This document shows, piece after piece, positions 39,915-59,403 of a DNA stretch of 64,000 bases (its first letter is position 1; each line of letters opens with the position of its first letter). The notes beneath the pieces are model-generated. The model ran no database searches, had not been told where the DNA came from, and saw only the letters and a list, made by a program, of their open reading frames with translations. The position numbers were made by a program, and so were the translations under genes. This stretch comes from Diplosphaera chodatii. Lineage: Eukaryota; Chlorophyta; Trebouxiophyceae; Prasiolales; Stichococcaceae. The stretch covers positions 2,294,001-2,358,000 of the forward strand of contig JAALGY010000052.1 in NCBI GenBank assembly GCA_032358165.1. The letters are read 5' to 3'.

Positions 39915-39919
39915 CATGG
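39915..39919. repeat. Target-site duplication CATGG (left)
   Basis: CATGG directly abuts the first LTR and is repeated immediately after the last LTR at 59399-59403. Five bp is the usual copia/Ty1 TSD length. Confidence 0.9.
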
Positions 39920-40230
39920 TGTCAGAGTTCGGAGGTAGCAAGGTGTAGACCGCGCTCAATGGTTACACTGGGAATGGAGAAGTGAGCAGTCAAACGCTGC
40001 TGCAGTGCTGATCAGCGACCGCTAAACCCTACCAGGTACTCATACCGTAGTATTCGCTGACTCAAAAGTGTAAGTCCGGCTTCCACCTCAAGACAGGTGT
40101 CCGCACGTAGCGCGTCCACAACAAACCAACCAACATGATATTCCAACTCGCAGGAACCCAAGGCTGAACCCTAGCCAGCTTAACTACTAGACTGCAACGG
40201 ACTGACGACTTGTGCAGTCTGTGTCCAACA
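39920..40230 (-). repeat. LTR 1 (outer 3' LTR)
   Basis: 311 bp, TG...CA ends (in element orientation TGTTGGACAC...CTCTGACA). Differs from the other four at 39945, where it has G and they have T. Confidence 0.93.
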
Positions 40231-40237
40231 CTCCCAC
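40231..40237 (-). other. Short polypurine tract candidate, unit 1
   Basis: On the minus strand GTGGGAG directly precedes the 3' LTR, the expected place for plus-strand priming. It is short and interrupted by one T. The same motif recurs at 45023, 49815 and 54607. Confidence 0.5.
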
Positions 40238-40311
40238 GCAGGCTATAAGTTTCAAGCTGTGCTGAGCTATCAGTGCTCCTAAGTCCCCCGACTATCGCCT
40301 CTACCGCTCCG

Positions 40312-43300
40312 CTAGCCCAGCCCGATGGCCGTGCAGGTCATCTCTAGCTTCGCCTTGTCCACAGGCTTAGTGAACATATCCGCCAGGTTGTCCTTCGTGC
40401 GAACGTACTCGATGCGGACCTCGCCCGCCGCCATACGCTCACGTGAGAAGTGGTATGCGATGTCGATGTGCTTAGATCTCACCGAGGAGATCGGGTTCTT
40501 CAGCATCTTGATGGCCGCTTGGTTGTCGTCGTAAATCAGGATGGGCTTGCCGCCCAAACCCAGCTCCTTGCTGAGCAGCCGCAGCCAGAGCGCCTCCTTG
40601 ACCGCTGGCGCTGCTGCCATGTACTCCGCCTCCGCCGTGCTGGCTGCAACTGACTTCTGCAGTTTGCTGCTCCAGCTGATGGCTCCGCCGCAAAAGGTGA
40701 ACACATAGCCACCTGTTGAGCGCCTTGTGTCGATGTCGTCGCCGTGGCTCGCATCGCACCAGCCCAGGAACTCCGCTGCCCCTTCGCCGAAGGTCAGGTG
40801 GTAGTGGCTGGTACCACTGAGGTACCTCAGCACGTGGAGCGCCGCTCGCCAGTGCGCGGTGGTAGGCTTGGAGATGTACCTTGCCAGGACTCCCACGGAG
40901 TGGGTGATGTCGGGCCGGGTGCAGGCTGAGACGTAGAGGAGGCTGCCCACGATGCTGGCATACTCCTTCGCCGTGTCTGAGTCCAGCAGCTCGCCCTCGC
41001 CAGTGCCGAGGCTCGTCCCCTGGCTGAGGGGCACGTGCCTGGCCCTTACGTCCTGCAGGTTGTGTTGTGCTGCCAGCCGCTCCACTCTCTGCTCCTGGCT
41101 GAGGGTGGCTGTGCGGCGGCTGCGGTCTCGTGTGATCTCCATGCCGAGGAAGGTGCCGACCTCGCCCAGGTCGGTCGCCTCGAACTCGGTCTTGATCGTG
41201 GTCTTCATGCTCATGATCCCGTCCAGGTCCTTGGACATGAGCACCAGGTCGTCGACGTAGAGCAGGATGTAGCTCGTCTCACCGGCCTTGTTGGTGGACG
41301 TGAAGAGGCCGGGGTCGGCGTATGACGGCTGGAAGCCGTGGTCGACGAGGCAGGTCGTCAGCCGCCGATGCCACGCCCGTGGTGCTTGCCGCAGCCCGTA
41401 CAGTGCCTTGTTGAGGTGGCAGACTGCAGTCCCAGGCTCGCCGCTCGCGAAGCCGGGTGGCTGGTGCACGTACACCTCCTCCTCCAGCTCGCCGTTGAGG
41501 AAGGCCGTCTTGATGTCCAGCTGATGGATCTCCAGGTCCTCGGCTGCGCCCTTGGCCAGCATCGCCCGAAGGGTGCTGTACTTGCTGACCGGGGCGAAGA
41601 CCTCCTCGAAGTCGACGCCCGCCTGCTGGCTGTAGCCCTGAGCAATGAGCCTTGCCTTGTAGCGAAGGACTTTGCCGGCGGGGTCCCTCTTGAGCTTGTA
41701 GAGCCACCTCGTCCCGATGACTCGTGCTCCAGGCGGCGCCCTTGGCACGAGGCTCCACGTGTCGTGCTTCGCCAGTGACTCCAGCTCCTCCTCCATGGCC
41801 GCCCTCCATTGCTCGCTCTGAGCTGAGTCCATCGCCTCGCGATAGGTGGATGGCTCGTGGATGGTTGGCTGAGTGCTGGCTGTCGCCGCGGTGGCCTTGA
41901 GGGCATAGGAGTCCAGAAGCTGCCGAGTCGGAGCTCGCTCCCGAGTCGGGTACCTCCGTACCGGAGGTGTACCAGCAGAGCTGGTGGCAGTGCTGTCGGC
42001 GGTGCTGTCAGCTGTGCTGTCGCCGCTCTCTTGTGCTGTCACGAATTCGGTGGTGTCGGTGTCCACCGAGGGGTCGTCGGCGACGTCGGTGACAGTTCGC
42101 TCGCTGTCGGTGGGTGCCGCAGCTGGCTCGTCGGGCAGAGGTACATCTGTTGCAGCTGGCTCGTCAGGCAGTGCTGCCACGTCATGCGGAGCTGGCAGGT
42201 CAACGTCGATATCGGGCATCTCAGGCTCTGACACTGTCGCAGGCTGCTGACCGCTGCTCGGCGGCTCAGGCTGTGCTGACTCGATGACAGTGACGTCGGC
42301 AGAGACTAATATCTTGCCTTCGCTGTAGATGCGGTACGCCTTGCCGTTTGGCTGGTAGCCGACGAAGTAGCCGACGCTGGAGCGGGCCTCCAGCTTGCTT
42401 CGCTTCGCCTCAGGCTTCAGGGCGTAGGCCTTGGCTCCGAAGACTCGTAGGTGGGCGACGTCGGGCTTTGTGCCGTGGAAGAGCTCCCACGGGGTCTTGG
42501 TCGATGACGTCGTCGTCGCCCGGTTTCGAAGGTAGCAGGCCGTGACCGCCGCCTCCGCCCACAACTCCTCGGGCAGGTGAAGGTTGCTTAGCAGCATCGC
42601 CCGATGCCGCTCGTGGATGGTGCGGTTGAGCCGCTCCGCCGCGCCGTTCTGTTCCGGGGTGTAGGGCGCCGAAGTCTGATGCTGCACGCCCTTGCCCGCC
42701 AGGAAGCTGTCCAGAGTCTGGTTTACGTACTCGGTACCGTTGTCGGTCCTGACGGCCTTGAGCTTGTGGCCGCACTGGTTCTCCAGCCGCACGATGGTGA
42801 CGATGCACGCTGCCGCCACGTCGGACTTCTTCGCCAGAGGGCATAGCACACTCAGCTTGCTGTAGTCGTCGTAGAAGGTGGCGAGGAACCGGCTCCCGCC
42901 CGTCGATCGCACCGGGAAGGGTCCCATGACGTCCATGTGCAGCAGCTCCAGGGGCCACGTCGTCTTGCTCGCGGACGCCGGCCGCGGGGTCCTGTGCTGC
43001 TTCGCCAGGATGCAGGGCTCGCACGCGGCTGCTGTGGCCGCCTTGAACTGCTCTGTCGTCGTGCTGATGCCGCTGACTGCGTCATTCTGACTCATCTTGA
43101 CCAGGTTGTCATAGCCCATGTGGCCGTACCGCTGATGCCAAAGCTGTGCGGTAGGCTGTGCTGCAGCCGCTGCTGCATAGCCGGGGCTGACCGTGTTGGC
43201 TGCGTTGCAGTACTCTCCGAACGTGGAGGCGCTGCCATAGCCGTAGCCGTCCAACAGGAACATGCCGTTCTGCAGCTTCGCGTTGGCTACAAAGCGGCCA

Positions 43301-44631
43301 TGCTGGCTGATGACGCACTTGCTGTCCTTGAACTCAAAGGTCGCACCAGCTGCCGCGCCGCAGCTGACACTGATGAGGTTCGCTGACGCTGTGGGCACGT
43401 GCAGCACGCTGAGCAGAGTAATCGTGCGATCAGTCCTGCCTGAGTGGTCTCGCAGGATGACGTCGCCGCATTGGGTAGCGGTCGCTCTGCCGCCGTCCGC
43501 GAAGACGATGACGATTGGCTCCTTGAGTGGTCGCACGTTCTTCATGTTCGCCCGGTACGCCGTGATGTGGTAGGTGGCGCCGCTGTCCACCAACCAGTCC
43601 GGGTTGGTTGCCGCAATGTAGGCTGTCTTGCCGTACGCTGACATGGCGATTGATGCCAAGCCGTTTGCTGGCACCGCGATGGCGCTGAACGCCGCTGCTG
43701 GCTGCTGGTTAGGTGCTGCCGCCGCCTTCTTCGGAGCTCTGCAGTCCTTGGACAGATGTCCCTTCTTGCCGCAGTTGTAGCATGAGCGGCCTTCCTTCCG
43801 CTTCTTGCCTTTGCCTTGCTGACCGCCGTTGCCGCCACGCTGGCCGTTGCCGCCTTGCTGTCCGCCGGCGTGCTGGTCGCCGTCCGCTGTGGCTGACCAG
43901 TACCCGTACTTTGACCCAGTCGACAGCGGCCCGTACCCAAATTGGTACGGCTGCTGGTACACTGCCGGTGTGTACCGCTGTTCGACTGCTGAGTAAGCTG
44001 CCACGTCCGCTGTCCGCGCGGGCAACACGTGCGCTGGTGCTCGCAGCTGCAGCTCGGCCGCCAGCAGCTTGGGCACGAGGAACTCGAGGCTGAGCTGGGC
44101 ACGATCGTGCGTCGACAGCACGTAGTGACACCAGGTCTCGTACTCTGGCCCGAGGCCGGTAAGCACGATCTCGCCCAGATCGATGCGGTCATACACACCG
44201 CCCGCCGCGTTGTGCCGCTCGTACAGGTCTTCCGCGCGCTCAAGGTAGTCCTTGCAGGGCTCGTTCGGAAGCTGTTTGAGGGAGTTGAGCAGCCGCCGGA
44301 GGGTGATCTTGTGCGACGACGTAGCCTCCTCGAACATGGCCTTCAGCTTGGCCCAAGCGTCGTAGGCATGAACGGTGGACTTGATGAGAGGGAACACCTT
44401 GGGCGAGACGTTCATGATGATCAGCGTCCACGCCGCGTGGTCCTTCTTCCGCGTCTTCTCGTCGGCCGCAATTTCGAGCAGGAGAGCTGCAGGGTTTTCC
44501 GGGAATACCACTGAATCGAGCTCTTTCTCAACATACTGCGCCGTGAGGACAACTGACCAGTAGGGCCAGTTCTCATTGTCAAGCTGATTTATTTTCAACT
44601 TGCCGATTGACTCTCCAACGTCGTTTCCCAT
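40312..44631 (-). CDS. Copia Gag-Pol polyprotein, unit 1
   Basis: 1439 residues in one frame without a stop or frameshift. Gag comes first (DUF4219/UBN2-like start with NENWPYWS), with a CCHC zinc knuckle CYNCGKKGHLSKDC near 284-297. Aspartic protease motif WLVDSGAT with catalytic D349. Integrase HHCC motif (HQRYGH...CEPC), then catalytic D567, D630 and E666 with D-x35-E spacing. Reverse transcriptase with YVDD at 1125-1128. RNase H with WCDASHGD and a copia-type end (KHIDIAYHF, KDNLADMFTKPV). Gag is not separated by a stop or shift, so the Gag:Pol ratio must be set another way, for example by a spliced or internal RNA as in Drosophila copia; that is inference. All key catalytic residues are present, so the element looks capable of autonomous activity. 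Copia elements replicate through virus-like particles in the cytoplasm and integrate in the nucleus. Confidence 0.96.
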   Translation of the reverse strand: MGNDVGESIGKLKINQLDNENWPYWSVVLTAQYVEKELDSVVFPENPAALLLEIAADEKTRKKDHAAWTLIIMNVSPKVFPLIKSTVHAYDAWAKLKAMFEEATSSHKITLRRLLNSLKQLPNEPCKDYLERAEDLYERHNAAGGVYDRIDLGEIVLTGLGPEYETWCHYVLSTHDRAQLSLEFLVPKLLAAELQLRAPAHVLPARTADVAAYSAVEQRYTPAVYQQPYQFGYGPLSTGSKYGYWSATADGDQHAGGQQGGNGQRGGNGGQQGKGKKRKEGRSCYNCGKKGHLSKDCRAPKKAAAAPNQQPAAAFSAIAVPANGLASIAMSAYGKTAYIAATNPDWLVDSGATYHITAYRANMKNVRPLKEPIVIVFADGGRATATQCGDVILRDHSGRTDRTITLLSVLHVPTASANLISVSCGAAAGATFEFKDSKCVISQHGRFVANAKLQNGMFLLDGYGYGSASTFGEYCNAANTVSPGYAAAAAAQPTAQLWHQRYGHMGYDNLVKMSQNDAVSGISTTTEQFKAATAAACEPCILAKQHRTPRPASASKTTWPLELLHMDVMGPFPVRSTGGSRFLATFYDDYSKLSVLCPLAKKSDVAAACIVTIVRLENQCGHKLKAVRTDNGTEYVNQTLDSFLAGKGVQHQTSAPYTPEQNGAAERLNRTIHERHRAMLLSNLHLPEELWAEAAVTACYLRNRATTTSSTKTPWELFHGTKPDVAHLRVFGAKAYALKPEAKRSKLEARSSVGYFVGYQPNGKAYRIYSEGKILVSADVTVIESAQPEPPSSGQQPATVSEPEMPDIDVDLPAPHDVAALPDEPAATDVPLPDEPAAAPTDSERTVTDVADDPSVDTDTTEFVTAQESGDSTADSTADSTATSSAGTPPVRRYPTRERAPTRQLLDSYALKATAATASTQPTIHEPSTYREAMDSAQSEQWRAAMEEELESLAKHDTWSLVPRAPPGARVIGTRWLYKLKRDPAGKVLRYKARLIAQGYSQQAGVDFEEVFAPVSKYSTLRAMLAKGAAEDLEIHQLDIKTAFLNGELEEEVYVHQPPGFASGEPGTAVCHLNKALYGLRQAPRAWHRRLTTCLVDHGFQPSYADPGLFTSTNKAGETSYILLYVDDLVLMSKDLDGIMSMKTTIKTEFEATDLGEVGTFLGMEITRDRSRRTATLSQEQRVERLAAQHNLQDVRARHVPLSQGTSLGTGEGELLDSDTAKEYASIVGSLLYVSACTRPDITHSVGVLARYISKPTTAHWRAALHVLRYLSGTSHYHLTFGEGAAEFLGWCDASHGDDIDTRRSTGGYVFTFCGGAISWSSKLQKSVAASTAEAEYMAAAPAVKEALWLRLLSKELGLGGKPILIYDDNQAAIKMLKNPISSVRSKHIDIAYHFSRERMAAGEVRIEYVRTKDNLADMFTKPVDKAKLEMTCTAIGLG

Positions 44632-44697
44632 ACTTGCACCTTGTCAGACAATTCTGCGTCGCAAAGCAGATCGTCACAATAGCTCAGCACCGTGTGT

Positions 44698-44711
44698 GTG
44701 GGCCCATAACC
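44698..44711 (-). other. Primer-binding site, unit 1
   Basis: Minus strand GGTTATGGGCCCAC starts at the first base after the 5' LTR. It is complementary to the anticodon arm of eukaryotic initiator tRNA-Met (GUGGGCCCAUAACC, anticodon CAU), the half-tRNA priming mode known for Drosophila copia. Confidence 0.85.
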
Positions 44712-45022
44712 TGTCAGAGTTCGGAGGTAGCAAGGTTTAGACCGCGCTCAATGGTTACACTGGGAATGGAGAAGTGAGCAGTCAAACGCTGCTGCAGTGC
44801 TGATCAGCGACCGCTAAACCCTACCAGGTACTCATACCGTAGTATTCGCTGACTCAAAAGTGTAAGTCCGGCTTCCACCTCAAGACAGGTGTCCGCACGT
44901 AGCGCGTCCACAACAAACCAACCAACATGATATTCCAACTCGCAGGAACCCAAGGCTGAACCCTAGCCAGCTTAACTACTAGACTGCAACGGACTGACGA
45001 CTTGTGCAGTCTGTGTCCAACA
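44712..45022 (-). repeat. LTR 2 (shared by units 1 and 2)
   Basis: 311 bp; serves as 5' LTR of unit 1 and 3' LTR of unit 2. No TSD on either side. Confidence 0.93.
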
Positions 45023-45103
45023 CTCCCACGCAGGCTATAAGTTTCAAGCTGTGCTGAGCTATCAGTGCTCCTAAGTCCCCCGACTATCGCCTCTACCGCT
45101 CCG

Positions 45104-48100
45104 CTAGCCCAGCCCGATGGCCGTGCAGGTCATCTCTAGCTTCGCCTTGTCCACAGGCTTAGTGAACATATCCGCCAGGTTGTCCTTCGTGCGAACGTAC
45201 TCGATGCGGACCTCGCCCGCCGCCATACGCTCACGTGAGAAGTGGTATGCGATGTCGATGTGCTTAGATCTCACCGAGGAGATCGGGTTCTTCAGCATCT
45301 TGATGGCCGCTTGGTTGTCGTCGTAAATCAGGATGGGCTTGCCGCCCAAACCCAGCTCCTTGCTGAGCAGCCGCAGCCAGAGCGCCTCCTTGACCGCTGG
45401 CGCTGCTGCCATGTACTCCGCCTCCGCCGTGCTGGCTGCAACTGACTTCTGCAGTTTGCTGCTCCAGCTGATGGCTCCGCCGCAAAAGGTGAACACATAG
45501 CCACCTGTTGAGCGCCTTGTGTCGATGTCGTCGCCGTGGCTCGCATCGCACCAGCCCAGGAACTCCGCTGCCCCTTCGCCGAAGGTCAGGTGGTAGTGGC
45601 TGGTACCACTGAGGTACCTCAGCACGTGGAGCGCCGCTCGCCAGTGCGCGGTGGTAGGCTTGGAGATGTACCTTGCCAGGACTCCCACGGAGTGGGTGAT
45701 GTCGGGCCGGGTGCAGGCTGAGACGTAGAGGAGGCTGCCCACGATGCTGGCATACTCCTTCGCCGTGTCTGAGTCCAGCAGCTCGCCCTCGCCAGTGCCG
45801 AGGCTCGTCCCCTGGCTGAGGGGCACGTGCCTGGCCCTTACGTCCTGCAGGTTGTGTTGTGCTGCCAGCCGCTCCACTCTCTGCTCCTGGCTGAGGGTGG
45901 CTGTGCGGCGGCTGCGGTCTCGTGTGATCTCCATGCCGAGGAAGGTGCCGACCTCGCCCAGGTCGGTCGCCTCGAACTCGGTCTTGATCGTGGTCTTCAT
46001 GCTCATGATCCCGTCCAGGTCCTTGGACATGAGCACCAGGTCGTCGACGTAGAGCAGGATGTAGCTCGTCTCACCGGCCTTGTTGGTGGACGTGAAGAGG
46101 CCGGGGTCGGCGTATGACGGCTGGAAGCCGTGGTCGACGAGGCAGGTCGTCAGCCGCCGATGCCACGCCCGTGGTGCTTGCCGCAGCCCGTACAGTGCCT
46201 TGTTGAGGTGGCAGACTGCAGTCCCAGGCTCGCCGCTCGCGAAGCCGGGTGGCTGGTGCACGTACACCTCCTCCTCCAGCTCGCCGTTGAGGAAGGCCGT
46301 CTTGATGTCCAGCTGATGGATCTCCAGGTCCTCGGCTGCGCCCTTGGCCAGCATCGCCCGAAGGGTGCTGTACTTGCTGACCGGGGCGAAGACCTCCTCG
46401 AAGTCGACGCCCGCCTGCTGGCTGTAGCCCTGAGCAATGAGCCTTGCCTTGTAGCGAAGGACTTTGCCGGCGGGGTCCCTCTTGAGCTTGTAGAGCCACC
46501 TCGTCCCGATGACTCGTGCTCCAGGCGGCGCCCTTGGCACGAGGCTCCACGTGTCGTGCTTCGCCAGTGACTCCAGCTCCTCCTCCATGGCCGCCCTCCA
46601 TTGCTCGCTCTGAGCTGAGTCCATCGCCTCGCGATAGGTGGATGGCTCGTGGATGGTTGGCTGAGTGCTGGCTGTCGCCGCGGTGGCCTTGAGGGCATAG
46701 GAGTCCAGAAGCTGCCGAGTCGGAGCTCGCTCCCGAGTCGGGTACCTCCGTACCGGAGGTGTACCAGCAGAGCTGGTGGCAGTGCTGTCGGCGGTGCTGT
46801 CAGCTGTGCTGTCGCCGCTCTCTTGTGCTGTCACGAATTCGGTGGTGTCGGTGTCCACCGAGGGGTCGTCGGCGACGTCGGTGACAGTTCGCTCGCTGTC
46901 GGTGGGTGCCGCAGCTGGCTCGTCGGGCAGAGGTACATCTGTTGCAGCTGGCTCGTCAGGCAGTGCTGCCACGTCATGCGGAGCTGGCAGGTCAACGTCG
47001 ATATCGGGCATCTCAGGCTCTGACACTGTCGCAGGCTGCTGACCGCTGCTCGGCGGCTCAGGCTGTGCTGACTCGATGACAGTGACGTCGGCAGAGACTA
47101 ATATCTTGCCTTCGCTGTAGATGCGGTACGCCTTGCCGTTTGGCTGGTAGCCGACGAAGTAGCCGACGCTGGAGCGGGCCTCCAGCTTGCTTCGCTTCGC
47201 CTCAGGCTTCAGGGCGTAGGCCTTGGCTCCGAAGACTCGTAGGTGGGCGACGTCGGGCTTTGTGCCGTGGAAGAGCTCCCACGGGGTCTTGGTCGATGAC
47301 GTCGTCGTCGCCCGGTTTCGAAGGTAGCAGGCCGTGACCGCCGCCTCCGCCCACAACTCCTCGGGCAGGTGAAGGTTGCTTAGCAGCATCGCCCGATGCC
47401 GCTCGTGGATGGTGCGGTTGAGCCGCTCCGCCGCGCCGTTCTGTTCCGGGGTGTAGGGCGCCGAAGTCTGATGCTGCACGCCCTTGCCCGCCAGGAAGCT
47501 GTCCAGAGTCTGGTTTACGTACTCGGTACCGTTGTCGGTCCTGACGGCCTTGAGCTTGTGGCCGCACTGGTTCTCCAGCCGCACGATGGTGACGATGCAC
47601 GCTGCCGCCACGTCGGACTTCTTCGCCAGAGGGCATAGCACACTCAGCTTGCTGTAGTCGTCGTAGAAGGTGGCGAGGAACCGGCTCCCGCCCGTCGATC
47701 GCACCGGGAAGGGTCCCATGACGTCCATGTGCAGCAGCTCCAGGGGCCACGTCGTCTTGCTCGCGGACGCCGGCCGCGGGGTCCTGTGCTGCTTCGCCAG
47801 GATGCAGGGCTCGCACGCGGCTGCTGTGGCCGCCTTGAACTGCTCTGTCGTCGTGCTGATGCCGCTGACTGCGTCATTCTGACTCATCTTGACCAGGTTG
47901 TCATAGCCCATGTGGCCGTACCGCTGATGCCAAAGCTGTGCGGTAGGCTGTGCTGCAGCCGCTGCTGCATAGCCGGGGCTGACCGTGTTGGCTGCGTTGC
48001 AGTACTCTCCGAACGTGGAGGCGCTGCCATAGCCGTAGCCGTCCAACAGGAACATGCCGTTCTGCAGCTTCGCGTTGGCTACAAAGCGGCCATGCTGGCT

Positions 48101-49423: not shown

Positions 49424-49489
49424 ACTTGCACCTTGTCAGACAATTCTGCGTCGCAAAGCAGATCGTCACAATAGCTCAGCACCGTGTGT

Positions 49490-49503
49490 GTGGGCCCATA
49501 ACC
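49490..49503 (-). other. Primer-binding site, unit 2
   Basis: Same initiator tRNA-Met complement as unit 1, directly adjacent to LTR 3. Confidence 0.83.
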
Positions 49504-49814
49504 TGTCAGAGTTCGGAGGTAGCAAGGTTTAGACCGCGCTCAATGGTTACACTGGGAATGGAGAAGTGAGCAGTCAAACGCTGCTGCAGTGCTGATCAGC
49601 GACCGCTAAACCCTACCAGGTACTCATACCGTAGTATTCGCTGACTCAAAAGTGTAAGTCCGGCTTCCACCTCAAGACAGGTGTCCGCACGTAGCGCGTC
49701 CACAACAAACCAACCAACATGATATTCCAACTCGCAGGAACCCAAGGCTGAACCCTAGCCAGCTTAACTACTAGACTGCAACGGACTGACGACTTGTGCA
49801 GTCTGTGTCCAACA
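49504..49814 (-). repeat. LTR 3 (shared by units 2 and 3)
   Basis: 311 bp copy with T at the position where LTR 1 has G. Confidence 0.93.
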
Positions 49815-49895
49815 CTCCCACGCAGGCTATAAGTTTCAAGCTGTGCTGAGCTATCAGTGCTCCTAAGTCCCCCGACTATCGCCTCTACCGCTCCG

Positions 49896-52800
49896 CTAGC
49901 CCAGCCCGATGGCCGTGCAGGTCATCTCTAGCTTCGCCTTGTCCACAGGCTTAGTGAACATATCCGCCAGGTTGTCCTTCGTGCGAACGTACTCGATGCG
50001 GACCTCGCCCGCCGCCATACGCTCACGTGAGAAGTGGTATGCGATGTCGATGTGCTTAGATCTCACCGAGGAGATCGGGTTCTTCAGCATCTTGATGGCC
50101 GCTTGGTTGTCGTCGTAAATCAGGATGGGCTTGCCGCCCAAACCCAGCTCCTTGCTGAGCAGCCGCAGCCAGAGCGCCTCCTTGACCGCTGGCGCTGCTG
50201 CCATGTACTCCGCCTCCGCCGTGCTGGCTGCAACTGACTTCTGCAGTTTGCTGCTCCAGCTGATGGCTCCGCCGCAAAAGGTGAACACATAGCCACCTGT
50301 TGAGCGCCTTGTGTCGATGTCGTCGCCGTGGCTCGCATCGCACCAGCCCAGGAACTCCGCTGCCCCTTCGCCGAAGGTCAGGTGGTAGTGGCTGGTACCA
50401 CTGAGGTACCTCAGCACGTGGAGCGCCGCTCGCCAGTGCGCGGTGGTAGGCTTGGAGATGTACCTTGCCAGGACTCCCACGGAGTGGGTGATGTCGGGCC
50501 GGGTGCAGGCTGAGACGTAGAGGAGGCTGCCCACGATGCTGGCATACTCCTTCGCCGTGTCTGAGTCCAGCAGCTCGCCCTCGCCAGTGCCGAGGCTCGT
50601 CCCCTGGCTGAGGGGCACGTGCCTGGCCCTTACGTCCTGCAGGTTGTGTTGTGCTGCCAGCCGCTCCACTCTCTGCTCCTGGCTGAGGGTGGCTGTGCGG
50701 CGGCTGCGGTCTCGTGTGATCTCCATGCCGAGGAAGGTGCCGACCTCGCCCAGGTCGGTCGCCTCGAACTCGGTCTTGATCGTGGTCTTCATGCTCATGA
50801 TCCCGTCCAGGTCCTTGGACATGAGCACCAGGTCGTCGACGTAGAGCAGGATGTAGCTCGTCTCACCGGCCTTGTTGGTGGACGTGAAGAGGCCGGGGTC
50901 GGCGTATGACGGCTGGAAGCCGTGGTCGACGAGGCAGGTCGTCAGCCGCCGATGCCACGCCCGTGGTGCTTGCCGCAGCCCGTACAGTGCCTTGTTGAGG
51001 TGGCAGACTGCAGTCCCAGGCTCGCCGCTCGCGAAGCCGGGTGGCTGGTGCACGTACACCTCCTCCTCCAGCTCGCCGTTGAGGAAGGCCGTCTTGATGT
51101 CCAGCTGATGGATCTCCAGGTCCTCGGCTGCGCCCTTGGCCAGCATCGCCCGAAGGGTGCTGTACTTGCTGACCGGGGCGAAGACCTCCTCGAAGTCGAC
51201 GCCCGCCTGCTGGCTGTAGCCCTGAGCAATGAGCCTTGCCTTGTAGCGAAGGACTTTGCCGGCGGGGTCCCTCTTGAGCTTGTAGAGCCACCTCGTCCCG
51301 ATGACTCGTGCTCCAGGCGGCGCCCTTGGCACGAGGCTCCACGTGTCGTGCTTCGCCAGTGACTCCAGCTCCTCCTCCATGGCCGCCCTCCATTGCTCGC
51401 TCTGAGCTGAGTCCATCGCCTCGCGATAGGTGGATGGCTCGTGGATGGTTGGCTGAGTGCTGGCTGTCGCCGCGGTGGCCTTGAGGGCATAGGAGTCCAG
51501 AAGCTGCCGAGTCGGAGCTCGCTCCCGAGTCGGGTACCTCCGTACCGGAGGTGTACCAGCAGAGCTGGTGGCAGTGCTGTCGGCGGTGCTGTCAGCTGTG
51601 CTGTCGCCGCTCTCTTGTGCTGTCACGAATTCGGTGGTGTCGGTGTCCACCGAGGGGTCGTCGGCGACGTCGGTGACAGTTCGCTCGCTGTCGGTGGGTG
51701 CCGCAGCTGGCTCGTCGGGCAGAGGTACATCTGTTGCAGCTGGCTCGTCAGGCAGTGCTGCCACGTCATGCGGAGCTGGCAGGTCAACGTCGATATCGGG
51801 CATCTCAGGCTCTGACACTGTCGCAGGCTGCTGACCGCTGCTCGGCGGCTCAGGCTGTGCTGACTCGATGACAGTGACGTCGGCAGAGACTAATATCTTG
51901 CCTTCGCTGTAGATGCGGTACGCCTTGCCGTTTGGCTGGTAGCCGACGAAGTAGCCGACGCTGGAGCGGGCCTCCAGCTTGCTTCGCTTCGCCTCAGGCT
52001 TCAGGGCGTAGGCCTTGGCTCCGAAGACTCGTAGGTGGGCGACGTCGGGCTTTGTGCCGTGGAAGAGCTCCCACGGGGTCTTGGTCGATGACGTCGTCGT
52101 CGCCCGGTTTCGAAGGTAGCAGGCCGTGACCGCCGCCTCCGCCCACAACTCCTCGGGCAGGTGAAGGTTGCTTAGCAGCATCGCCCGATGCCGCTCGTGG
52201 ATGGTGCGGTTGAGCCGCTCCGCCGCGCCGTTCTGTTCCGGGGTGTAGGGCGCCGAAGTCTGATGCTGCACGCCCTTGCCCGCCAGGAAGCTGTCCAGAG
52301 TCTGGTTTACGTACTCGGTACCGTTGTCGGTCCTGACGGCCTTGAGCTTGTGGCCGCACTGGTTCTCCAGCCGCACGATGGTGACGATGCACGCTGCCGC
52401 CACGTCGGACTTCTTCGCCAGAGGGCATAGCACACTCAGCTTGCTGTAGTCGTCGTAGAAGGTGGCGAGGAACCGGCTCCCGCCCGTCGATCGCACCGGG
52501 AAGGGTCCCATGACGTCCATGTGCAGCAGCTCCAGGGGCCACGTCGTCTTGCTCGCGGACGCCGGCCGCGGGGTCCTGTGCTGCTTCGCCAGGATGCAGG
52601 GCTCGCACGCGGCTGCTGTGGCCGCCTTGAACTGCTCTGTCGTCGTGCTGATGCCGCTGACTGCGTCATTCTGACTCATCTTGACCAGGTTGTCATAGCC
52701 CATGTGGCCGTACCGCTGATGCCAAAGCTGTGCGGTAGGCTGTGCTGCAGCCGCTGCTGCATAGCCGGGGCTGACCGTGTTGGCTGCGTTGCAGTACTCT

Positions 52801-54215
52801 CCGAACGTGGAGGCGCTGCCATAGCCGTAGCCGTCCAACAGGAACATGCCGTTCTGCAGCTTCGCGTTGGCTACAAAGCGGCCATGCTGGCTGATGACGC
52901 ACTTGCTGTCCTTGAACTCAAAGGTCGCACCAGCTGCCGCGCCGCAGCTGACACTGATGAGGTTCGCTGACGCTGTGGGCACGTGCAGCACGCTGAGCAG
53001 AGTAATCGTGCGATCAGTCCTGCCTGAGTGGTCTCGCAGGATGACGTCGCCGCATTGGGTAGCGGTCGCTCTGCCGCCGTCCGCGAAGACGATGACGATT
53101 GGCTCCTTGAGTGGTCGCACGTTCTTCATGTTCGCCCGGTACGCCGTGATGTGGTAGGTGGCGCCGCTGTCCACCAACCAGTCCGGGTTGGTTGCCGCAA
53201 TGTAGGCTGTCTTGCCGTACGCTGACATGGCGATTGATGCCAAGCCGTTTGCTGGCACCGCGATGGCGCTGAACGCCGCTGCTGGCTGCTGGTTAGGTGC
53301 TGCCGCCGCCTTCTTCGGAGCTCTGCAGTCCTTGGACAGATGTCCCTTCTTGCCGCAGTTGTAGCATGAGCGGCCTTCCTTCCGCTTCTTGCCTTTGCCT
53401 TGCTGACCGCCGTTGCCGCCACGCTGGCCGTTGCCGCCTTGCTGTCCGCCGGCGTGCTGGTCGCCGTCCGCTGTGGCTGACCAGTACCCGTACTTTGACC
53501 CAGTCGACAGCGGCCCGTACCCAAATTGGTACGGCTGCTGGTACACTGCCGGTGTGTACCGCTGTTCGACTGCTGAGTAAGCTGCCACGTCCGCTGTCCG
53601 CGCGGGCAACACGTGCGCTGGTGCTCGCAGCTGCAGCTCGGCCGCCAGCAGCTTGGGCACGAGGAACTCGAGGCTGAGCTGGGCACGATCGTGCGTCGAC
53701 AGCACGTAGTGACACCAGGTCTCGTACTCTGGCCCGAGGCCGGTAAGCACGATCTCGCCCAGATCGATGCGGTCATACACACCGCCCGCCGCGTTGTGCC
53801 GCTCGTACAGGTCTTCCGCGCGCTCAAGGTAGTCCTTGCAGGGCTCGTTCGGAAGCTGTTTGAGGGAGTTGAGCAGCCGCCGGAGGGTGATCTTGTGCGA
53901 CGACGTAGCCTCCTCGAACATGGCCTTCAGCTTGGCCCAAGCGTCGTAGGCATGAACGGTGGACTTGATGAGAGGGAACACCTTGGGCGAGACGTTCATG
54001 ATGATCAGCGTCCACGCCGCGTGGTCCTTCTTCCGCGTCTTCTCGTCGGCCGCAATTTCGAGCAGGAGAGCTGCAGGGTTTTCCGGGAATACCACTGAAT
54101 CGAGCTCTTTCTCAACATACTGCGCCGTGAGGACAACTGACCAGTAGGGCCAGTTCTCATTGTCAAGCTGATTTATTTTCAACTTGCCGATTGACTCTCC
54201 AACGTCGTTTCCCAT
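49896..54215 (-). CDS. Copia Gag-Pol polyprotein, unit 3
   Basis: Identical 1439-residue frame, again 4792 bp from its neighbour. No disrupting mutation seen. Confidence 0.96.
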   Translation of the reverse strand: MGNDVGESIGKLKINQLDNENWPYWSVVLTAQYVEKELDSVVFPENPAALLLEIAADEKTRKKDHAAWTLIIMNVSPKVFPLIKSTVHAYDAWAKLKAMFEEATSSHKITLRRLLNSLKQLPNEPCKDYLERAEDLYERHNAAGGVYDRIDLGEIVLTGLGPEYETWCHYVLSTHDRAQLSLEFLVPKLLAAELQLRAPAHVLPARTADVAAYSAVEQRYTPAVYQQPYQFGYGPLSTGSKYGYWSATADGDQHAGGQQGGNGQRGGNGGQQGKGKKRKEGRSCYNCGKKGHLSKDCRAPKKAAAAPNQQPAAAFSAIAVPANGLASIAMSAYGKTAYIAATNPDWLVDSGATYHITAYRANMKNVRPLKEPIVIVFADGGRATATQCGDVILRDHSGRTDRTITLLSVLHVPTASANLISVSCGAAAGATFEFKDSKCVISQHGRFVANAKLQNGMFLLDGYGYGSASTFGEYCNAANTVSPGYAAAAAAQPTAQLWHQRYGHMGYDNLVKMSQNDAVSGISTTTEQFKAATAAACEPCILAKQHRTPRPASASKTTWPLELLHMDVMGPFPVRSTGGSRFLATFYDDYSKLSVLCPLAKKSDVAAACIVTIVRLENQCGHKLKAVRTDNGTEYVNQTLDSFLAGKGVQHQTSAPYTPEQNGAAERLNRTIHERHRAMLLSNLHLPEELWAEAAVTACYLRNRATTTSSTKTPWELFHGTKPDVAHLRVFGAKAYALKPEAKRSKLEARSSVGYFVGYQPNGKAYRIYSEGKILVSADVTVIESAQPEPPSSGQQPATVSEPEMPDIDVDLPAPHDVAALPDEPAATDVPLPDEPAAAPTDSERTVTDVADDPSVDTDTTEFVTAQESGDSTADSTADSTATSSAGTPPVRRYPTRERAPTRQLLDSYALKATAATASTQPTIHEPSTYREAMDSAQSEQWRAAMEEELESLAKHDTWSLVPRAPPGARVIGTRWLYKLKRDPAGKVLRYKARLIAQGYSQQAGVDFEEVFAPVSKYSTLRAMLAKGAAEDLEIHQLDIKTAFLNGELEEEVYVHQPPGFASGEPGTAVCHLNKALYGLRQAPRAWHRRLTTCLVDHGFQPSYADPGLFTSTNKAGETSYILLYVDDLVLMSKDLDGIMSMKTTIKTEFEATDLGEVGTFLGMEITRDRSRRTATLSQEQRVERLAAQHNLQDVRARHVPLSQGTSLGTGEGELLDSDTAKEYASIVGSLLYVSACTRPDITHSVGVLARYISKPTTAHWRAALHVLRYLSGTSHYHLTFGEGAAEFLGWCDASHGDDIDTRRSTGGYVFTFCGGAISWSSKLQKSVAASTAEAEYMAAAPAVKEALWLRLLSKELGLGGKPILIYDDNQAAIKMLKNPISSVRSKHIDIAYHFSRERMAAGEVRIEYVRTKDNLADMFTKPVDKAKLEMTCTAIGLG

Positions 54216-54281
54216 ACTTGCACCTTGTCAGACAATTCTGCGTCGCAAAGCAGATCGTCACAATAGCTCAGCACCGTGTGT

Positions 54282-54295
54282 GTGGGCCCATAACC
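54282..54295 (-). other. Primer-binding site, unit 3
   Basis: Same 14-base initiator tRNA-Met complement next to LTR 4. Confidence 0.83.
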
Positions 54296-54606
54296 TGTCA
54301 GAGTTCGGAGGTAGCAAGGTTTAGACCGCGCTCAATGGTTACACTGGGAATGGAGAAGTGAGCAGTCAAACGCTGCTGCAGTGCTGATCAGCGACCGCTA
54401 AACCCTACCAGGTACTCATACCGTAGTATTCGCTGACTCAAAAGTGTAAGTCCGGCTTCCACCTCAAGACAGGTGTCCGCACGTAGCGCGTCCACAACAA
54501 ACCAACCAACATGATATTCCAACTCGCAGGAACCCAAGGCTGAACCCTAGCCAGCTTAACTACTAGACTGCAACGGACTGACGACTTGTGCAGTCTGTGT
54601 CCAACA
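54296..54606 (-). repeat. LTR 4 (shared by units 3 and 4)
   Basis: 311 bp copy, T variant, no flanking duplication. Confidence 0.93.
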
Positions 54607-54687
54607 CTCCCACGCAGGCTATAAGTTTCAAGCTGTGCTGAGCTATCAGTGCTCCTAAGTCCCCCGACTATCGCCTCTACCGCTCCG

Positions 54688-57600
54688 CTAGCCCAGCCCG
54701 ATGGCCGTGCAGGTCATCTCTAGCTTCGCCTTGTCCACAGGCTTAGTGAACATATCCGCCAGGTTGTCCTTCGTGCGAACGTACTCGATGCGGACCTCGC
54801 CCGCCGCCATACGCTCACGTGAGAAGTGGTATGCGATGTCGATGTGCTTAGATCTCACCGAGGAGATCGGGTTCTTCAGCATCTTGATGGCCGCTTGGTT
54901 GTCGTCGTAAATCAGGATGGGCTTGCCGCCCAAACCCAGCTCCTTGCTGAGCAGCCGCAGCCAGAGCGCCTCCTTGACCGCTGGCGCTGCTGCCATGTAC
55001 TCCGCCTCCGCCGTGCTGGCTGCAACTGACTTCTGCAGTTTGCTGCTCCAGCTGATGGCTCCGCCGCAAAAGGTGAACACATAGCCACCTGTTGAGCGCC
55101 TTGTGTCGATGTCGTCGCCGTGGCTCGCATCGCACCAGCCCAGGAACTCCGCTGCCCCTTCGCCGAAGGTCAGGTGGTAGTGGCTGGTACCACTGAGGTA
55201 CCTCAGCACGTGGAGCGCCGCTCGCCAGTGCGCGGTGGTAGGCTTGGAGATGTACCTTGCCAGGACTCCCACGGAGTGGGTGATGTCGGGCCGGGTGCAG
55301 GCTGAGACGTAGAGGAGGCTGCCCACGATGCTGGCATACTCCTTCGCCGTGTCTGAGTCCAGCAGCTCGCCCTCGCCAGTGCCGAGGCTCGTCCCCTGGC
55401 TGAGGGGCACGTGCCTGGCCCTTACGTCCTGCAGGTTGTGTTGTGCTGCCAGCCGCTCCACTCTCTGCTCCTGGCTGAGGGTGGCTGTGCGGCGGCTGCG
55501 GTCTCGTGTGATCTCCATGCCGAGGAAGGTGCCGACCTCGCCCAGGTCGGTCGCCTCGAACTCGGTCTTGATCGTGGTCTTCATGCTCATGATCCCGTCC
55601 AGGTCCTTGGACATGAGCACCAGGTCGTCGACGTAGAGCAGGATGTAGCTCGTCTCACCGGCCTTGTTGGTGGACGTGAAGAGGCCGGGGTCGGCGTATG
55701 ACGGCTGGAAGCCGTGGTCGACGAGGCAGGTCGTCAGCCGCCGATGCCACGCCCGTGGTGCTTGCCGCAGCCCGTACAGTGCCTTGTTGAGGTGGCAGAC
55801 TGCAGTCCCAGGCTCGCCGCTCGCGAAGCCGGGTGGCTGGTGCACGTACACCTCCTCCTCCAGCTCGCCGTTGAGGAAGGCCGTCTTGATGTCCAGCTGA
55901 TGGATCTCCAGGTCCTCGGCTGCGCCCTTGGCCAGCATCGCCCGAAGGGTGCTGTACTTGCTGACCGGGGCGAAGACCTCCTCGAAGTCGACGCCCGCCT
56001 GCTGGCTGTAGCCCTGAGCAATGAGCCTTGCCTTGTAGCGAAGGACTTTGCCGGCGGGGTCCCTCTTGAGCTTGTAGAGCCACCTCGTCCCGATGACTCG
56101 TGCTCCAGGCGGCGCCCTTGGCACGAGGCTCCACGTGTCGTGCTTCGCCAGTGACTCCAGCTCCTCCTCCATGGCCGCCCTCCATTGCTCGCTCTGAGCT
56201 GAGTCCATCGCCTCGCGATAGGTGGATGGCTCGTGGATGGTTGGCTGAGTGCTGGCTGTCGCCGCGGTGGCCTTGAGGGCATAGGAGTCCAGAAGCTGCC
56301 GAGTCGGAGCTCGCTCCCGAGTCGGGTACCTCCGTACCGGAGGTGTACCAGCAGAGCTGGTGGCAGTGCTGTCGGCGGTGCTGTCAGCTGTGCTGTCGCC
56401 GCTCTCTTGTGCTGTCACGAATTCGGTGGTGTCGGTGTCCACCGAGGGGTCGTCGGCGACGTCGGTGACAGTTCGCTCGCTGTCGGTGGGTGCCGCAGCT
56501 GGCTCGTCGGGCAGAGGTACATCTGTTGCAGCTGGCTCGTCAGGCAGTGCTGCCACGTCATGCGGAGCTGGCAGGTCAACGTCGATATCGGGCATCTCAG
56601 GCTCTGACACTGTCGCAGGCTGCTGACCGCTGCTCGGCGGCTCAGGCTGTGCTGACTCGATGACAGTGACGTCGGCAGAGACTAATATCTTGCCTTCGCT
56701 GTAGATGCGGTACGCCTTGCCGTTTGGCTGGTAGCCGACGAAGTAGCCGACGCTGGAGCGGGCCTCCAGCTTGCTTCGCTTCGCCTCAGGCTTCAGGGCG
56801 TAGGCCTTGGCTCCGAAGACTCGTAGGTGGGCGACGTCGGGCTTTGTGCCGTGGAAGAGCTCCCACGGGGTCTTGGTCGATGACGTCGTCGTCGCCCGGT
56901 TTCGAAGGTAGCAGGCCGTGACCGCCGCCTCCGCCCACAACTCCTCGGGCAGGTGAAGGTTGCTTAGCAGCATCGCCCGATGCCGCTCGTGGATGGTGCG
57001 GTTGAGCCGCTCCGCCGCGCCGTTCTGTTCCGGGGTGTAGGGCGCCGAAGTCTGATGCTGCACGCCCTTGCCCGCCAGGAAGCTGTCCAGAGTCTGGTTT
57101 ACGTACTCGGTACCGTTGTCGGTCCTGACGGCCTTGAGCTTGTGGCCGCACTGGTTCTCCAGCCGCACGATGGTGACGATGCACGCTGCCGCCACGTCGG
57201 ACTTCTTCGCCAGAGGGCATAGCACACTCAGCTTGCTGTAGTCGTCGTAGAAGGTGGCGAGGAACCGGCTCCCGCCCGTCGATCGCACCGGGAAGGGTCC
57301 CATGACGTCCATGTGCAGCAGCTCCAGGGGCCACGTCGTCTTGCTCGCGGACGCCGGCCGCGGGGTCCTGTGCTGCTTCGCCAGGATGCAGGGCTCGCAC
57401 GCGGCTGCTGTGGCCGCCTTGAACTGCTCTGTCGTCGTGCTGATGCCGCTGACTGCGTCATTCTGACTCATCTTGACCAGGTTGTCATAGCCCATGTGGC
57501 CGTACCGCTGATGCCAAAGCTGTGCGGTAGGCTGTGCTGCAGCCGCTGCTGCATAGCCGGGGCTGACCGTGTTGGCTGCGTTGCAGTACTCTCCGAACGT

Positions 57601-59007
57601 GGAGGCGCTGCCATAGCCGTAGCCGTCCAACAGGAACATGCCGTTCTGCAGCTTCGCGTTGGCTACAAAGCGGCCATGCTGGCTGATGACGCACTTGCTG
57701 TCCTTGAACTCAAAGGTCGCACCAGCTGCCGCGCCGCAGCTGACACTGATGAGGTTCGCTGACGCTGTGGGCACGTGCAGCACGCTGAGCAGAGTAATCG
57801 TGCGATCAGTCCTGCCTGAGTGGTCTCGCAGGATGACGTCGCCGCATTGGGTAGCGGTCGCTCTGCCGCCGTCCGCGAAGACGATGACGATTGGCTCCTT
57901 GAGTGGTCGCACGTTCTTCATGTTCGCCCGGTACGCCGTGATGTGGTAGGTGGCGCCGCTGTCCACCAACCAGTCCGGGTTGGTTGCCGCAATGTAGGCT
58001 GTCTTGCCGTACGCTGACATGGCGATTGATGCCAAGCCGTTTGCTGGCACCGCGATGGCGCTGAACGCCGCTGCTGGCTGCTGGTTAGGTGCTGCCGCCG
58101 CCTTCTTCGGAGCTCTGCAGTCCTTGGACAGATGTCCCTTCTTGCCGCAGTTGTAGCATGAGCGGCCTTCCTTCCGCTTCTTGCCTTTGCCTTGCTGACC
58201 GCCGTTGCCGCCACGCTGGCCGTTGCCGCCTTGCTGTCCGCCGGCGTGCTGGTCGCCGTCCGCTGTGGCTGACCAGTACCCGTACTTTGACCCAGTCGAC
58301 AGCGGCCCGTACCCAAATTGGTACGGCTGCTGGTACACTGCCGGTGTGTACCGCTGTTCGACTGCTGAGTAAGCTGCCACGTCCGCTGTCCGCGCGGGCA
58401 ACACGTGCGCTGGTGCTCGCAGCTGCAGCTCGGCCGCCAGCAGCTTGGGCACGAGGAACTCGAGGCTGAGCTGGGCACGATCGTGCGTCGACAGCACGTA
58501 GTGACACCAGGTCTCGTACTCTGGCCCGAGGCCGGTAAGCACGATCTCGCCCAGATCGATGCGGTCATACACACCGCCCGCCGCGTTGTGCCGCTCGTAC
58601 AGGTCTTCCGCGCGCTCAAGGTAGTCCTTGCAGGGCTCGTTCGGAAGCTGTTTGAGGGAGTTGAGCAGCCGCCGGAGGGTGATCTTGTGCGACGACGTAG
58701 CCTCCTCGAACATGGCCTTCAGCTTGGCCCAAGCGTCGTAGGCATGAACGGTGGACTTGATGAGAGGGAACACCTTGGGCGAGACGTTCATGATGATCAG
58801 CGTCCACGCCGCGTGGTCCTTCTTCCGCGTCTTCTCGTCGGCCGCAATTTCGAGCAGGAGAGCTGCAGGGTTTTCCGGGAATACCACTGAATCGAGCTCT
58901 TTCTCAACATACTGCGCCGTGAGGACAACTGACCAGTAGGGCCAGTTCTCATTGTCAAGCTGATTTATTTTCAACTTGCCGATTGACTCTCCAACGTCGT
59001 TTCCCAT
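54688..59007 (-). CDS. Copia Gag-Pol polyprotein, unit 4 (5'-most)
   Basis: Identical 1439-residue frame. This is the first unit in transcription order; its 5' LTR (LTR 5) is the outer right LTR. Confidence 0.96.
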   Translation of the reverse strand: MGNDVGESIGKLKINQLDNENWPYWSVVLTAQYVEKELDSVVFPENPAALLLEIAADEKTRKKDHAAWTLIIMNVSPKVFPLIKSTVHAYDAWAKLKAMFEEATSSHKITLRRLLNSLKQLPNEPCKDYLERAEDLYERHNAAGGVYDRIDLGEIVLTGLGPEYETWCHYVLSTHDRAQLSLEFLVPKLLAAELQLRAPAHVLPARTADVAAYSAVEQRYTPAVYQQPYQFGYGPLSTGSKYGYWSATADGDQHAGGQQGGNGQRGGNGGQQGKGKKRKEGRSCYNCGKKGHLSKDCRAPKKAAAAPNQQPAAAFSAIAVPANGLASIAMSAYGKTAYIAATNPDWLVDSGATYHITAYRANMKNVRPLKEPIVIVFADGGRATATQCGDVILRDHSGRTDRTITLLSVLHVPTASANLISVSCGAAAGATFEFKDSKCVISQHGRFVANAKLQNGMFLLDGYGYGSASTFGEYCNAANTVSPGYAAAAAAQPTAQLWHQRYGHMGYDNLVKMSQNDAVSGISTTTEQFKAATAAACEPCILAKQHRTPRPASASKTTWPLELLHMDVMGPFPVRSTGGSRFLATFYDDYSKLSVLCPLAKKSDVAAACIVTIVRLENQCGHKLKAVRTDNGTEYVNQTLDSFLAGKGVQHQTSAPYTPEQNGAAERLNRTIHERHRAMLLSNLHLPEELWAEAAVTACYLRNRATTTSSTKTPWELFHGTKPDVAHLRVFGAKAYALKPEAKRSKLEARSSVGYFVGYQPNGKAYRIYSEGKILVSADVTVIESAQPEPPSSGQQPATVSEPEMPDIDVDLPAPHDVAALPDEPAATDVPLPDEPAAAPTDSERTVTDVADDPSVDTDTTEFVTAQESGDSTADSTADSTATSSAGTPPVRRYPTRERAPTRQLLDSYALKATAATASTQPTIHEPSTYREAMDSAQSEQWRAAMEEELESLAKHDTWSLVPRAPPGARVIGTRWLYKLKRDPAGKVLRYKARLIAQGYSQQAGVDFEEVFAPVSKYSTLRAMLAKGAAEDLEIHQLDIKTAFLNGELEEEVYVHQPPGFASGEPGTAVCHLNKALYGLRQAPRAWHRRLTTCLVDHGFQPSYADPGLFTSTNKAGETSYILLYVDDLVLMSKDLDGIMSMKTTIKTEFEATDLGEVGTFLGMEITRDRSRRTATLSQEQRVERLAAQHNLQDVRARHVPLSQGTSLGTGEGELLDSDTAKEYASIVGSLLYVSACTRPDITHSVGVLARYISKPTTAHWRAALHVLRYLSGTSHYHLTFGEGAAEFLGWCDASHGDDIDTRRSTGGYVFTFCGGAISWSSKLQKSVAASTAEAEYMAAAPAVKEALWLRLLSKELGLGGKPILIYDDNQAAIKMLKNPISSVRSKHIDIAYHFSRERMAAGEVRIEYVRTKDNLADMFTKPVDKAKLEMTCTAIGLG

Positions 59008-59073
59008 ACTTGCACCTTGTCAGACAATTCTGCGTCGCAAAGCAGATCGTCACAATAGCTCAGCACCGTGTGT

Positions 59074-59087
59074 GTGGGCCCATAACC
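59074..59087 (-). other. Primer-binding site, unit 4
   Basis: Same 14-base initiator tRNA-Met complement next to LTR 5. Confidence 0.83.
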
Positions 59088-59398
59088 TGTCAGAGTTCGG
59101 AGGTAGCAAGGTTTAGACCGCGCTCAATGGTTACACTGGGAATGGAGAAGTGAGCAGTCAAACGCTGCTGCAGTGCTGATCAGCGACCGCTAAACCCTAC
59201 CAGGTACTCATACCGTAGTATTCGCTGACTCAAAAGTGTAAGTCCGGCTTCCACCTCAAGACAGGTGTCCGCACGTAGCGCGTCCACAACAAACCAACCA
59301 ACATGATATTCCAACTCGCAGGAACCCAAGGCTGAACCCTAGCCAGCTTAACTACTAGACTGCAACGGACTGACGACTTGTGCAGTCTGTGTCCAACA
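59088..59398 (-). repeat. LTR 5 (outer 5' LTR)
   Basis: 311 bp; the shared sequence stops at 59398-59399, where host sequence CATGG begins. T variant. Confidence 0.93.
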
Positions 59399-59403
59399 CA
59401 TGG
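59399..59403. repeat. Target-site duplication CATGG (right)
   Basis: Matches 39915-39919 exactly; marks the other end of the single insertion event. Confidence 0.9.

Follow-up and report, generated by a model that had tools for sequence, protein, structure and literature searches.

A 64,000-nucleotide stretch of the Diplosphaera chodatii genome, referred to here as the window, contains a run of retrotransposon units at positions 39920-59398 that share their long terminal repeats (LTRs) within one target-site duplication (TSD). How did several units come to stand at a single insertion site? According to the parts of PMC11899658 that treat plant tandem LTR retrotransposons, which are defined there by shared LTRs and one TSD, such elements are common and their origin is unresolved. 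The family studied here is small, its host genome is compact and its copies carry diagnostic bases, which would make it tractable for telling cDNA recombination from unequal crossing-over. The genome searched was the window's own assembly (85,565,671 bases in 55 contigs), and copy numbers derived from repeat searches of it are lower bounds.

Structure and coding capacity of the array in the window

The array in the window (array A) consists of five 311-bp LTRs alternating with four internal regions at a period of exactly 4792 bp, with the elements oriented on the minus strand. The LTRs begin with TGTCAG, end with CCAACA, and start at 39920, 44712, 49504, 54296 and 59088, a spacing of 4792 bp repeated four times. 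LTR1 (39920-40230), which in element orientation is the outermost unit's 3′ LTR, is followed by internal region 1 (40231-44711), LTR2 (44712-45022), internal region 2 (45023-49503), LTR3 (49504-49814), internal region 3 (49815-54295), LTR4 (54296-54606), internal region 4 (54607-59087) and LTR5 (59088-59398), the 5′ LTR of the array; LTR2, LTR3 and LTR4 are shared. The pentamer CATGG is found only outside the array, at 39915-39919 on the left and 59399-59403 on the right, and the inner junctions, where LTR joins internal sequence, were checked and have no duplication. A reading made from the sequence alone (the sequence-only reading) had described four head-to-tail elements with this period and with CATGG on the outermost ends only, and both parts of that description hold.

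The same reading had claimed near-perfect identity among the units, and we find a single base difference across the array. This sole mismatch lies at LTR position 26 (window 39945), where LTR1 has G and LTR2-5 have T; units 2, 3 and 4 show zero differences across 4792 bp. A 4.8-kb period that stays near-exact across 19.5 kb cannot be put down to chance. There are four units as assembled, and the true count, which rests on the assembly, may differ. Independent adjacent insertions, which the earlier reading had already ruled out, are rejected as the origin of array A, whose LTRs are shared and whose inner TSDs are absent. More generally, separate insertions leave internal TSDs and end-joining leaves abutting LTR pairs, and both processes are therefore disfavoured.

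Each unit of array A contains a single uninterrupted 1439-codon gag-pol open reading frame on the minus strand, located at 40312-44631 in unit 1, at 45104-49423 in unit 2 and, as placed by the period, at 49896-54215 and 54688-59007 in units 3 and 4. Pfam domains occur in the order copia gag, zinc knuckle, GAG-pre-integrase, integrase core (rve, residues 560-659 of the 1439) and reverse transcriptase (RVT_2, residues 957-1202, E 2.6e-67). The integrase precedes an RVT_2-type reverse transcriptase in one polyprotein, and the elements thus belong to the Ty1/copia superfamily, as had been proposed. They also have the TG...CA LTRs, the 5-bp TSD and the tRNA-type primer binding site by which this superfamily is recognized. 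The motifs that we presumed such a frame to carry (CCHC, DSGA, integrase HHCC and DD35E, YVDD and the RNase H acidic residues) lie at identical positions in all six units of array A and of a second array described below (array B), and the frame is uncut in all six. In the integrase, 35 residues separate D630 from E666, as counted by hand. An uncut frame with every sought motif in six of six units suggests that the family could make cDNA. Among the 120 homologous proteins listed of 2705 matches, 12 are named by organism; eight are green-algal (three from Micractinium, two from Haematococcus, and one each from Tetradesmus, Myrmecia and Chlorella) and four are from land plants (three from Centaurea and one from Lolium).

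The non-coding signals of a retrotransposon are also in place. Adjoining the 3′ LTR of unit 1 at 40231-40239 is a purine-rich stretch, GCGTGGGAG on the minus strand, which we take from the familiar motif to be a likely polypurine tract. The primer binding site of this unit (44698-44711, minus strand) corresponds on the plus strand to nucleotides 27-40 of a tRNA-Met(CAT) gene and is present in every unit. The 14-base sequence, which precedes the inner LTRs on the plus strand, occurs 10 times in the assembly: four times in array A, twice in array B, twice in a third array (array C, below) and twice in tRNA-Met(CAT) genes, as called by ARAGORN with the bacterial code. ARAGORN called no tRNA gene in the 64-kb window. 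We take the primer of all three arrays to be an internal (half-tRNA) one, the type that is typical of Drosophila copia. TGTAA, the green-algal polyadenylation signal, also occurs once in the LTR, at position 264 of 311.

Relatives and control elements in the assembly

A search of the assembly with the LTR gave 13 candidates, all of which scored as matches: five in array A, three in array B, three in array C, and one each on contigs C2 and C10. Array B (C45:2370932-2380826) has two units with a period of 4792 bp, three LTRs and the TSD AGGGT; it lies on the same contig as array A, 17,533 bp away and in the same orientation. Array C (C19:1723205-1727216; L018:5205-9216) is 4012 bp in total and has two 1850-bp units, 312-bp LTRs and the TSD ATAGG. 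Its internal region resembles the 4792-bp element only near the LTRs, gag start included, and array C is a related non-autonomous element, itself tandem, with its primer binding site in common with arrays A and B. The interior of array C contains 20-bp and 21-bp tandem repeats and a remnant of the gag start. Each of the three arrays has alternating units, shared inner LTRs and a single TSD on its outer ends, the structure that characterizes tandem LTR retrotransposons. The C2 copy is a solo LTR (C2:215604-215915) with the TSD ACTTC, and LTR-LTR recombination therefore occurs in this genome; that on C10 is a fragment of an LTR.

Coding copies were found in the two longer arrays only. An RVT_2 profile search of the assembly gave six scored candidates, all of them matches, which correspond one to one to the six units in arrays A and B. 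DNA searches with the whole internal region, split into two pieces, and with the internal region of array C gave no match beyond the three arrays. In these searches, which set lower bounds, no single two-LTR copy of the copia family was found in the assembly, and all three loci with internal sequence are tandem.

An rve search of the assembly gave 12 matches among 13 candidates. Half of these matches are the copia units, and the remaining six lie one each on contigs C9, C10, C15, C26, C33 and C34; the match on C33 lies below the family cut-off and the other five lie above it. We inspected 10 kb around four of these six matches, those on C15, C26, C33 and C34. The C15 element has one 226-bp LTR pair with 100% identity and the TSD GCATC, the C33 element has one repeat pair of ~200 bp with 98% identity and no clear TSD, and no LTR pair was found in the 10 kb around C26 or C34. 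None of these four Ty3-type loci is tandem, indicating that a tandem form is not the rule among recent LTR elements of the assembly.

Segmental duplication of array A to give array B is rejected, as the TSDs differ and the flanks are dissimilar; pairwise comparison of the 3-kb flanks of arrays A, B and C and of the solo LTR revealed no similarity at E<=1e-3. Ectopic crossing-over between A and B is unlikely, as each array retains its own matching TSD. By a post hoc estimate, the chance that a random second insertion falls as close as the A-B spacing is about 4 in 10,000.

Diagnostic bases and exchange between arrays

Two positions of the LTR alignment, 26 and 220, distinguish the copies. All three array C LTRs, the solo LTR (where the alignment context around position 26 is poor) and the C10 fragment have G at both, and G is therefore likely to be the ancestral state. 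In array A, all five LTRs have T220 and four of the five have T26. The outer LTRs of array B are identical to each other and have G26 and G220. The inner LTR of array B, in contrast, has T26 and T220 and is identical over 311 bp to LTR2-5 of array A; the two derived bases occur elsewhere only in array A. Matching chance mutations at both sites are very unlikely. Because the inner LTR of array B carries both derived bases of array A and its outer pair carries neither, sequence of an A-type copy must have entered array B.

The A-like tract in array B has a minimum length of 195 bp and a maximum of ~3.5 kb, being bounded by B-type bases at unit position 2456 in unit 1 and 1146 in unit 2. At positions 1146, 2231 and 2456 of the unit, both B units differ from array A. 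Three of the four internal differences alter the protein (codons 128, 753 and 828). Residues at these codons are too variable for the differences to be polarized, and comparison with the 120 homologous proteins gave no assignable state.

Unequal crossing-over inside one element yields inner LTRs that are mosaics, combining parts of the right and the left outer LTR. The two outer LTRs are not identical in array A or in array C, and the inner LTRs share the derived base with only one of them. All three inner LTRs of array A fit the mosaic in the predicted order, with 286 possible crossover points, as does the one inner LTR of array C, with 77. The inner LTR of array B fails, with 0 crossover points and at least two mismatches.

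Origin of the arrays

The existence of two further single-TSD arrays, the foreign inner LTR of array B and the shortness of array C together speak for a single insertion followed by homologous recombination, and we consider it probable that the arrays were built in this way, whatever the donor. That the other coding copies in the genome are also chained points in the same direction. One TSD per array, shared LTRs, near-identity, the presence of three arrays and the foreign inner LTR can all be read directly from the sequence. On this basis, a Ty1/copia element would have integrated once by its own integrase, leaving one 5-bp TSD, and the resident copy would then have grown to four LTR-sharing units by homologous recombination. 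The sequence-only reading had listed recombination at one site, insertion of a multimer and unequal crossing-over as possible origins. Its structural premise stands and recombination at the single site is favoured, whereas insertion of a multimer has lost ground and unequal crossing-over alone fails for the inner LTR of array B.

As to the donor, we infer that, given such recombination, a cDNA or circle is more likely than not, rather than another chromosomal copy. Our tentative suggestion, with somewhat less than even probability overall, is that the extra units arose when linear cDNA or one-LTR circles, reverse-transcribed by the family itself, recombined with a resident copy. An RNA started in the right (5′) LTR of array A and ended in the left (3′) LTR would yield cDNA with T26 and T220, matching the state of the inner LTRs of array A and of array B. 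A second molecule must have taken part in array B, since its inner LTR has T26/T220 and its outer pair G26/G220. As both B units are non-A at positions 1146, 2231 and 2456, the A-type donor would predate the A bases at these positions, or conversion has erased them. Had a whole A-type circle entered array B, one B unit should show the bases of array A at 1146, 2231 and 2456, which counts against that version. Furthermore, the inner LTRs of arrays A and C fit plain unequal crossing-over equally well, which counts against the cDNA route. Array B may also merely have been converted by array A DNA rather than enlarged. The cDNA route therefore leads only narrowly, with ectopic conversion as a close rival.

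In this rival account, each locus began as one inserted element and grew by unequal crossing-over between LTRs on sister chromatids or homologues, after which ectopic gene conversion, with array A as the donor, replaced the inner LTR of array B. The exact mosaics in arrays A (three of three) and C (one of one), in the predicted order, are what it predicts; its reciprocal product, a solo LTR, is present on C2, and a conversion tract of ~0.2-3.5 kb from an array just 17.5 kb distant would explain array B. However, it requires an additional step for array B, and its single two-LTR starting state is seen at none of the few loci. We regard it as quite possible, if less probable than the cDNA route. 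One-step integration of a ready multimer, made as concatemeric cDNA or as cDNA from a read-through tandem RNA, is a route proposed for rice in the corresponding part of PMC11899658. It would leave one TSD per array, and the identical outer LTRs of array B with their differing inner LTR fit a regenerated outer pair around a copied inner one. In arrays A and C, however, the outer pair is not identical and the inner LTRs share the derived base with one only, which points to exchange after insertion, and we consider integration of a multimer improbable.

The possibility that the assembler created the tandem units or their number had been named as the main alternative. Units 2-4 of array A are identical and 19.5 kb may surpass many reads, so that its exact unit count is still exposed to such an error. 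In contrast, the same architecture recurs at three loci, each with a TSD of its own, array C at just 4012 bp falls within ordinary long reads, and the recent Ty3-type elements of the same assembly are non-tandem at all four loci. The units and LTRs of array B also differ among themselves, and its A-like tract is flanked on both sides by B-specific bases, unlike a simple misjoin. An artefact is thus no longer the main alternative and seems very improbable. A broader proposal, which we consider rather unlikely, is that the copia family persists mainly as self-made concatemers, with re-entry of cDNA or circles outpacing new integration. Tandem arrays would then be its standing form and solo LTRs its loss product, and the non-autonomous partner would be carried likewise.

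Integrase-independent recombination of cDNA is known for Ty1 and for Tf1/Tf2, Tf2 being a Ty3-type element. A new unit derived from another copy and lying within a resident element would mark this route; the inner LTR of array B is A-type, which conversion would also explain. Multimeric Ty1 arrays and cDNA recombination in budding yeast were described by Weinstock 1990, Melamed 1992 and Sharon 1994, as cited in the relevant parts of PMC5911963 and PMC7524711; there, an element of the same superfamily receives cDNA by homologous recombination into a resident copy, a route demonstrated genetically for Ty1 and proposed from sequence for array A. The passages of PMC10836971 on fission-yeast Tf2-7/8 report two, three or four tandem copies at one site, depending on the laboratory strain, with the central LTR in common as in array A, but Tf2 also has single copies, whereas none was found for the copia family here. 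The rice and plant arrays covered in those parts of PMC11899658 share with array A the alternation of LTRs and internal regions, shared inner LTRs, an outer 5-nt TSD and high identity. The rice arrays are mostly Gypsy, whereas array A is a copia element of four units in a green alga whose assembly yielded no single-copy form. Cassandra TRIM elements, in the portion of PMC7215508 devoted to them, form long arrays of LTRs with internal domains between; they are non-coding and carry 5S sequences in their LTRs, in contrast to array A with its full gag-pol frame of 1439 codons, and array C is the closer parallel. No green-algal tandem LTR elements were recognized in the literature, as judged by titles and abstract openings and with most subscription journals outside the scope. 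Tandem LTR arrays are already known from plants and yeast, and array A adds a further case. Less usual features are that the family was found exclusively in tandem form and that diagnostic bases reveal exchange between two of its arrays. The members found are arrays, one solo LTR and one LTR fragment, whose bases show exchange between arrays, and the arrays would be loci of easily scored change in unit number between strains.

The assembly contains several other repeats. On C45, the LINE-type reverse transcriptase matches among those listed (150 of 318 candidates scored) all lie at 334-380 kb, a region that is a candidate centromere by analogy with the Zepp clusters described in the pertinent part of PMC11005252. 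Array A is at 2.33 Mb, and arrays A and B are ~2 Mb from this cluster, a position that does not support a centromeric copia array. Among 20 stop-to-stop frames taken from around the arrays and from the left part of the window, Pfam gave a single match over the cut-off, a CCT motif (E 1.7e-10) at C45:2384033-2386499 (L016), close to the right end of array B. A response-regulator match there (E 0.0029) is below the cut-off, and these frames are perhaps a pseudo-response-regulator gene. Window positions 1-2900 hold more than 20 copies of a Pro/Ala-rich coding repeat that recurs every 102 or 126 bp (34 or 42 residues), inside a 1222-codon open frame that extends past the left end; the repeat protein has no Pfam match. 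At C30:745849-773444, the RVT_1 matches among those listed are regularly spaced, at five intervals of 3511-3730 bp and three intervals of 1876 bp, a pattern suggestive of LINE-type units arranged in tandem. Repeats of ~336 bp occur near contig ends, close to the end of C26 (L043:7-2352) and the start of C33 (L045:8021-9923), and are possibly a subtelomeric satellite.
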